The notes under the pieces are model-generated. The model was not told the origin of the DNA. It saw nothing but the letters and a program-made list of their open reading frames with translations, and did no database searches. From assembly GCF_008271465.1 (NCBI RefSeq), contig NZ_VMDU01000001.1, positions 248,001 through 312,000 on the forward strand: DNA of 64,000 nucleotides. Reading direction: 5' to 3'. Positions 11,131-16,138 of the stretch are shown here, in pieces (positions within the stretch are counted from its first letter, which is position 1; the number at the start of each line of letters is the position of its first letter). The position numbers and the translations under genes were made by a program. The DNA is from Tabrizicola flagellatus. Its GTDB lineage: Bacteria > Pseudomonadota > Alphaproteobacteria > Rhodobacterales > Rhodobacteraceae.

Positions 11131-15344
<4,214 letters not shown>

Positions 15345-15374
15345 GTCGCGGCTTGTTCCGATCTGTTCGCGAAT

Positions 15375-15389
15375 GTTCTTAAAAAGTTC
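15375..15389 (+). promoter_or_regulatory. LexA (SOS) box, GTTC-N7-GTTC
   Basis: GTTCTTAAAAAGTTC is an exact match to the direct-repeat SOS box of Rhodobacterales and other alphaproteobacteria (GTTC-N7-GTTC). Two more GTTC words lie upstream at 15355 and 15365. The box ends where a candidate -35 (TTTACA, 15390-15395) begins, with a weak -10 (AACAAT, 15414-15419) 18 bp on. A repressor bound here would block this promoter. Confidence 0.8.
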
Positions 15390-15444
15390 TTTACATGGCA
15401 TTGCCGATGTGAGAACAATGCAGCAACAGATCATGGAGGACGCC

Positions 15445-15567
15445 GTGAAAGACACCATGAAGACCCTGCTGAGCCACACCCCGAAAGGCGCGATGGAGGA
15501 CCTCGTCGGTGTTGCCTCGCTGTTCGTGATCCTGTTTGCCGTGCTGTCGTTGCCCGGCCTGCACTGA
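15445..15567 (+). CDS. Small single-pass membrane protein under probable SOS control
   Basis: A 40-residue protein: a short charged N-terminus (KDTMKTLLSHTPKGAMED) and one hydrophobic helix (about residues 20-36, LVGVASLFVILFAVLSL), ending LPGLH. I chose GTG 15445 because GGAGGA stands at 15436-15441 at good spacing. ATG 15418 falls in the predicted -10 box and ATG 15433 has no ribosome site, so longer versions are less likely. A terminator-like stem follows. I do not recognise the family. Size, topology and the SOS box recall the SOS-induced inner-membrane division inhibitors of Caulobacter (SidA), but I see no sequence proof of that role. Confidence 0.65.
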   Translation: MKDTMKTLLSHTPKGAMEDLVGVASLFVILFAVLSLPGLH

Positions 15568-15645
15568 GCTTTCTGCCCCGCGCTCTGTCCCCTGAAATGT
15601 GACGGTCCGCCTCGCCTGGCCCGCCGTCCATCCAGAAGCGCCACT

Positions 15646-15682
15646 GCCGCCGCCGTCCCATGGGATGCGCGGCGGCTTTTTG
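15646..15682 (+). terminator. Rho-independent terminator after the SOS microprotein
   Basis: A GCCGCCG...CGGCGGC stem with an inner TCCCA/TGGGA pair is followed by TTTTT at about 15678-15682. It lies about 80 bp after the microprotein stop and would end that transcript before the convergent scaffold gene. Confidence 0.65.
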
Positions 15683-15694
15683 TGCTGCGTCCGG

Positions 15695-16138
15695 CTAGGC
15701 AGCGGCCTGCGCGGCCTCCATCGCTTCGCAGACGGCTTCCAGGGCCAAGAGGATCGAGGCGTGCCGGTTCTTGTAGTCGCGGGCGGGAAGCAGGACTTCA
15801 TAACCCTGGAAGGGGGCCGCCGGCACGGGGCCGCCCTCCTTCAGCATGGCGCGCAAGGCATCTCTTGCGGCTTGCAGTTCGGGCAGGCTGCGCCCGAGGA
15901 CGACCTGACCCAGCACCGCGGCCGAAGCCTGGCCCAGCGCGCAGGCCTTCACGTCCTGGGCGAACTCGGCGACCCTGCCGTCCTGCACCACCACATCCGC
16001 CGTGACGGTCGAGCCGCAGAGGGGCGAGCGGCGCCGGGCGGTGCCCTGCGGGGCGGGCAGGCGGCCGAGATGCGGGATGTCGGCGGCGAGCCCGAGGATG
16101 CGGGCGGAGTAGAGCTTGATGAGGTCGCTGTCGCTCAT
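15695..16138 (-). CDS. IscU/SufU-like iron-sulfur scaffold family protein
   Basis: A 147-residue protein of the IscU/NifU-N fold. Two of the three expected cluster cysteines are visible: Cys41 in SPLCGSTVTADV and Cys66 in DVKACALGQASAAV. At the third site, where IscU has a His-Cys-Ser motif near the C-terminus, this protein has NRHASILLALEA, so the cysteine is replaced by alanine. It is divergent from hisI with about 60 bp between them, and no other isc or suf gene is in the window. It may be an atypical carrier or a regulator of assembly rather than a full scaffold; the fold assignment is firm, the role is not. Confidence 0.8.
   Translation of the reverse strand: MSDSDLIKLYSARILGLAADIPHLGRLPAPQGTARRRSPLCGSTVTADVVVQDGRVAEFAQDVKACALGQASAAVLGQVVLGRSLPELQAARDALRAMLKEGGPVPAAPFQGYEVLLPARDYKNRHASILLALEAVCEAMEAAQAAA

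Follow-up and report, generated by a model that had tools for sequence, protein, structure and literature searches.

The locus behind recG

What is made from the short interval between recG and the gene that converges on it, and what might its product do when DNA is damaged? The interval lies in the window, by which we mean the whole 64-kb stretch of DNA that was analysed, part of a genome of 3.6 Mb; it is bounded by the end of recG at 15344 (RecG identity by NCBIfam NF008164) and by a convergent NifU_N-like gene. A first-pass annotation had described, just 3' of recG, a LexA-type box, a TTTACA hexamer, a ribosome-binding site, a 40-codon frame and a terminator, and each of these elements can be read directly in the sequence.

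All of them are on the forward strand. GTTC words start at 15355, 15365, 15375 and 15386 (spacings of 10, 10 and 11 bp), so that the two extra words reported upstream of the box are indeed present; the first three (15355-15378) run at 10-bp spacing into the exact GTTC-N7-GTTC box GTTCTTAAAAAGTTC (15375-15389), and of these the one starting 10 bp ahead of the box is kept at 95 of 110 promoter-selected loci. The box abuts the -35 element of a promoter, TTTACA-N18-AACAAT (15390-15419; -35 at 15390-15395, -10 at 15414-15419), which agrees with sigma-70 at 9 of 12 positions and was the one site found by a promoter scan, against a mean of 0.0 in shuffles. A second LexA-like site, GAAC-N7-CAAC (15413-15427), one base off, lies over the -10 and is included in the strict promoter pattern followed across the family below. 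The ribosome-binding site GGAGG (15435-15439) precedes the microprotein gene (15445-15567), with a GTG start at 15445 and a TGA stop at 15565-15567. Behind it come a 3' UTR RNA region (15568-15642) and an intrinsic terminator, GCCGCCGCC...GGCGGC-TTTTT (15646-15681), composed of a GC hairpin (15646-15676) that is visible in folds and a T5 run (15677-15681) that is kept in the genus alignment; a terminator scan of 15300-15760 returned no sites and missed this hairpin. The convergent gene, running from 16138 down to 15695, has a weak NifU_N match (PF01592, 23.7 bits with a cut-off of 22) and ends 14 bases past the T run.

The same arrangement recurs in relatives, with recG directly upstream of the promoter at 76 of the 80 named loci examined; two of the four loci where it was not found begin less than 100 bp from the locus edge. 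The recG, UTR and RNA analyses covered the first 80 of at least 118 named stretches, and the other 38 were checked for the frame only.

A family-wide microprotein gene

The 40-codon frame, which is easy to overlook, is almost certainly a real microprotein gene found throughout the family. The 40-residue query matched 30 of the 31 other genomes of the genus, the sole genome without a match being 59% complete. At the position aligned with 15445, 29 of the 30 genus loci have ATG and the window alone has GTG; all 30 loci, the window included, hold a 40-residue frame from that aligned start. Over 435 pairs, the median dN/dS was 0.205 in the microprotein frame, the other two frames giving 1.03 and 3.8, and third codon positions hold most of the variation. 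Loss of the frame or the box in relatives, or a ratio near 1, had been named in advance as grounds in the sequence for giving up the gene; the frame and the box proved to be conserved and the ratio far below 1. Longer in-frame starts, such as ATG at 15433 or 15373, which many relatives also have, are disfavoured because the genus loci share the start at the 15445 position and the family frames centre on 40 residues.

Our family set of 248 genomes represents the Rhodobacteraceae, going by named relatives. A profile of 67 diverse members (A2), built from the window and promoter-selected loci, matched 217 of these genomes at E 0.001 (189 of the 215 of good quality), with a single match in each except two; the total is slightly generous because at this threshold the profile still takes in weak matches (8e-4, 1e-3). 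The remaining 31 of the 248 gave no match with this profile. An earlier profile (A1; 140 of 248 at E 0.1) had chance hits among its matches and was dropped in favour of A2. Among 289 genomes drawn from the class, five matched, four of them inside the family; the only match in the 285 genomes outside it was weak, lay within a 332-aa frame and is probably due to chance. From the family-wide matches and this near absence elsewhere in the class, the gene is an ancient one, close to fixation in the Rhodobacteraceae and seemingly confined to them. This spread, like the conserved 3' RNA described below, is an addition to the original observation.

Loci selected by the promoter lead to the same frame, which was found behind the strict pattern at 110 of 110 loci (107 distinct proteins) and at 37 of the 38 further named loci. 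Its length at the 110 loci was exactly 40 residues in 77 and 39 in 16, counted from the start giving the length nearest 40 where a locus offered several in frame. In Paracoccus saliphilus (L172) and P. amoyensis (L191) the promoter is kept, but the best frames behind it reach only 34 and 32 residues, have diverged and end in LWLPAILQA, which suggests fast change of the microprotein in Paracoccus.

A promoter with a LexA-type box

Our reading of the promoter sequences makes LexA control very likely, because the box is conserved when loci are selected either by protein or by promoter, is shared with recA and lexA, and matches the LexA consensus of Caulobacter, which is the same GTTC-N7-GTTC (PMC12700426; also PMC4211646). 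The evidence is this conservation and not the box by itself: the window contains one exact box and shuffles give a mean of 1.25, so the box alone was rejected as uninformative. The whole genome of the window has 91 exact boxes, versus 39 for a backward control.

The first-pass annotation had proposed a search for box and frame together across relatives, and this search placed a GTTC-N7-GTTC within 160 bp upstream of 27 of 28 loci selected with one protein profile and 30 of 30 selected with a second (57 of 58, from 54 genomes; about 0.1% in shuffles), the second profile having been derived from the window and from members selected by promoter. The strict promoter pattern occurred in 133 of the 248 family genomes, with none for the backward control and no genome carrying two copies among the matches listed. 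It was found in two of the 289 genomes of the class sample, both in the family, and a scan of named genomes returned at least 118 stretches, which are titled Rhodobacterales or Rhodobacteraceae, or are MAGs labelled only Alphaproteobacteria or Pseudomonadota.

The motif had been taken for the LexA box of Rhodobacterales, an identification that the recA and lexA controls support: a box with identical half-sites and spacing lies upstream of recA in 29 of 30 genomes and upstream of lexA in all 28 examined (less than 1% in shuffles), and also upstream of both genes in the window's own genome. These controls used 30 hand-chosen genomes, 29 of them with the strict promoter; lexA was matched in 29 of the 30, and a truncated match and a spurious one do not enter the count. 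A promoter box of the kind that recA and lexA also carry is the feature by which the microprotein gene would be placed in the Rhodobacteraceae LexA/SOS regulon. In an in-silico LexA survey of Dinoroseobacter, recG is absent from the main text (PMC6473078).

The seven spacer bases upstream of recA and lexA differ from gene to gene and are conserved in part (recA often AAGAGGC, lexA often ATGCGTA), a conservation that exceeds the need of half-site recognition. Upstream of lexA we also observed two to three overlapping GAAC-N7-GAAC copies in an 11-bp phase (L290, about 217-239 bp before the match; also L275, L277, L282, L284 and L286). The microprotein promoter is likewise more invariant than LexA half-sites need, and therefore LexA bound at more than one site, or a different factor, may act there.

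A putative single-span membrane protein and its possible target

The claim that the product has one membrane helix agrees with the structure prediction, in which helices span residues 2-11 and 13-35, and with the lack of charge after residue 19. The AlphaFold2 model has a mean pLDDT of 79.5 and a pTM of 0.43, with a pLDDT of 96 over residues 21-30, and the long helix is followed by only about five residues. Among 100 distinct members, taken from those of exactly 40 residues only, D19 (99%), G22 (100%), A/S25 (99%), L26 (97%), L34 (99%) and P37 (96%) are conserved, and K, R, D and E are absent from all of them beyond residue 19; residues 1-18 carry a net charge that averages +1.3. Conservation on one helical face was weak to borderline (permutation p of 0.06 for residues 18-38 and 0.03 for residues 5-38). 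These features fit a single-span inner-membrane protein that would have its N-terminus inside and a small-residue contact motif. Searches of Pfam and NCBIfam gave no model over cut-off for the microprotein (the best Pfam model was DUF3149, 12.7 bits versus a cut-off of 23.2), and PHROGs, a PDB profile search and plasmid tblastn gave nothing over threshold.

The nearest parallel in role and size is SidA of Caulobacter crescentus, a LexA-controlled inner-membrane protein of 29 residues that acts on FtsW (PMC4211646), and filamentation of lexA-deleted Caulobacter is owing to sidA (PMC12700426). The microprotein resembles SidA as a tiny, putatively LexA-controlled inner-membrane protein behind the same GTTC-N7-GTTC consensus, but it has 40 residues instead of 29 and is likened to SidA by role and size only, such that at best it would work like SidA, with no claim of membership in the SidA family. 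The available parts of the two Caulobacter papers mention no 3' RNA for SidA (PMC4211646, PMC12700426), whereas in relatives of the window an RNA is present behind the microprotein. A second small damage-induced membrane division inhibitor of Caulobacter, DidA, is induced by DriD rather than LexA (PMC4211646), unlike the microprotein, which stands behind a LexA-type box.

Search of the 248 family genomes for SulA (PF03846) gave no match over the Pfam cut-off, with two genomes having matches below it that contain stop codons; among 14 control genomes, E. coli alone was matched. YneA and SosA have a single membrane span plus a larger outside part, and by this description are set apart from the protein here, with its few residues after the helix. 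Both are SOS-induced division inhibitors of Gram-positive bacteria (PMC13396833, PMC6851548).

Given the SidA precedent, the sidA-dependent filamentation and the lack of a SulA over cut-off, we put the chance that the microprotein inhibits division, by analogy, at even or a little under. A damage-inducible microprotein might also act away from the divisome, on a transporter, a protease, a respiratory complex or the gene-transfer-agent/CtrA circuitry. Transporter modulation is known for many small membrane proteins, a general pattern that would be consistent with such a target. So would the observation that production of the gene transfer agent in R. capsulatus needs LexA (PMC9638019). We found nothing that speaks directly against a target of this kind; a checkpoint role is, however, the best precedent for such regulation, and we regard a non-divisome target as unlikely but still credible.

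A structured RNA behind the stop codon

The stretch from stop codon to terminator is a conserved RNA region rather than plain spacer. Within 150 nt past the stop, CTGCCTG occurs at 55 of 77 named loci (3.2 in shuffled sequences; median position of the first copy 9) and CTGTCCC at 49 of 77 (3.6 shuffled; median position 46), 77 of the 80 UTRs being long enough and 60 of those 77 suited to automatic cutting. Single-sequence folds, judged by eye, give a closing stem, P1, two to four hairpins and the terminator, with the two words mostly in loops. Folding energies were low (mean MFE z of -2.8, and below -2 in 47 of 60 loci), and UGYCY words were both frequent (4.08 versus 1.47 shuffled copies per RNA) and mostly unpaired (0.69 versus 0.45 in shuffles).

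The structure was obtained with an iterated covariance model. A first model from six sequences gave 31 matches in 81 sources (688,909 bases), and the rebuilt model, R2, gave 46 in 100 sources (748,150 bases), which included the 80 named loci; at 46 of these 80 loci there is thus a structured RNA that shows covariation and has CUGYCY in its loops, and 34 gave no R2 match. All 46 matches sit behind a microprotein stop, at a median distance of 3 nt (range -2 to 90), and in the same 100 sources no match away from such a stop passed E 0.05. In the R2 alignment, which is fitted to the model, 87.2% of cells pair, versus 66.2 when shuffled and 37-42 when slid; all 31 modelled pairs vary on both sides, with 248 double-change cells versus 71 in shuffles in this same fitted alignment. 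Because a covariance-model alignment leans to its structure, P1 was also tested free of alignment: own arms out-paired swapped arms with none of 2000 permutations reaching the observed total over 60 loci, though in only 20 of the 60 did they outdo 95% or more of the foreign arms. MAFFT with RNAalifold, applied to those UTRs that have CTGCC early on (65 of 77), returned no structure. For many relatives, a conserved RNA structure is hardly in doubt.

The window itself carries a shortened form of this RNA that is missed by R2, which likewise left all 19 genus loci searched without a match. It consists of UUUCUGCCCC followed by P1, formed by GCGCUCUG (15580-15587) with CAGA-A-GCGC (15633-15641). 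Both UUUCUGCCCC and P1 are near-invariant over 29 genus loci, and all 30 genus loci are predicted to form P1, with a pair probability above 0.5; in the window this stem appears in the best fold if the sequence is cut at the T run and is absent if the fold runs 11 bases further. Since P1 hardly varies within the genus, the RNA is without covariation support there.

Searches of Rfam at gathering score gave no matches in the window or in the loci of the 10 relatives given. The 3' RNA and terminator of L171 (6280-6387) weakly matched the Xanthomonas sRNA sX13 (20.2 bits versus a gathering score of 50, E 0.058). Both sX13 and the Cuckoo RNAs are sRNAs with C-rich loops, and sX13 resembles the RNA described here in its several hairpins and C-rich loops; it differs in that the match is far under the Rfam threshold and the RNA here has a CUGYCY motif and sits immediately behind an SOS-type microprotein gene.

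We consider it somewhat probable that the RNA has a function beyond termination or stability, and it may be either a second output of the transcript or a stability or control element. Pairing of the leader with the 3' RNA in cis was no better for own than for swapped pairs, which therefore speaks against simple cis repression.

The RNA could even be the main product, an SOS-induced sRNA with C-rich loops that would hit G-rich mRNAs or titrate an RNA-binding protein, with the microprotein secondary or in the same pathway. Changes on both sides of every modelled pair in the fitted alignment, the excess of unpaired UGYCY, the outcome of the alignment-free test and the constant position just behind the stop would all be consistent with this. 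On the other side, the microprotein is itself under strong purifying selection, pairing of the loops with the plain Shine-Dalgarno word is weak, own leaders and RNAs pair no better than swapped ones, and many named loci are without an R2 match; an RNA as main product is therefore unlikely in our judgement.

A proposed mechanism

We propose, with about equal weight for and against, that an SOS-induced transcript gives rise to an inner-membrane microprotein, probably a SidA-like division inhibitor, together with a regulatory RNA in its 3' UTR. A short transcript of about 260 nt from promoter to terminator would start just past recG. LexA, bound at 15375-15389 where it would touch the -35, and probably over the -10 as well, would keep the promoter off until DNA damage led to RecA-stimulated cleavage of LexA, freeing the promoter for a burst of short mRNA. 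The 40-residue product would enter the inner membrane as a single helix with its N-terminus inside, where the conserved D19, G22, A/S25, L26, L34 and P37 would contact a membrane partner. The likeliest partner would be the late divisome (FtsW/FtsI/FtsN), and division would be delayed as it is by SidA in Caulobacter. The RNA of the 3' UTR, which has several hairpins in many relatives and a shortened form in the genus of the window, would show CUGYCY in its loops and may act as a second, RNA-level output or in control of the mRNA.

The fullest version of this scheme, one LexA-controlled transcript near-universal in the family with two damage outputs, a checkpoint protein and a modular CUGYCY-loop 3' UTR RNA, is tentative, and we give it clearly less than an even chance. 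If true, DNA damage would switch division and the translation of other mRNAs together.

An alternative for the protein is a membrane toxin of the TisB kind, which would depolarise the membrane and promote dormancy. LexA-type control, a length of about 40 residues and a single helix would suit such a toxin, but the TisB helix is amphipathic and charged, whereas all 100 members here are uncharged after residue 19, and conservation of specific residues suggests a protein partner. TisB is an SOS-induced short membrane peptide of E. coli (PMC8145889), and we judge a toxin of its kind improbable. Least probable, and in our view very doubtful, is that a regulator other than LexA binds the repeated-GTTC promoter: near-invariance past the half-sites, the third direct GTTC at most loci and the single strict copy per genome among the matches listed would agree with one, but the half-sites and 11-bp spacing are those of the recA and lexA boxes of the same genomes, which likewise have gene-specific, partly conserved spacers.

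Implications for the Rhodobacteraceae

Our literature search, which covered open-licence papers, returned no paper on the microprotein gene or its RNA and nothing on how Rhodobacteraceae hold division during DNA damage. The Rhodobacteraceae are a large family of marine and soil bacteria with laboratory models, and the occurrence of one gene family behind a LexA-type box, matched in 217 of 248 genomes, puts the control of division at times of DNA damage within reach of a direct test. The covarying RNA behind the gene would count as a new family of RNA, possibly forming part of a dual-function SOS transcript. Together, the microprotein and its RNA may constitute a damage-response module of this large family that has so far escaped study.
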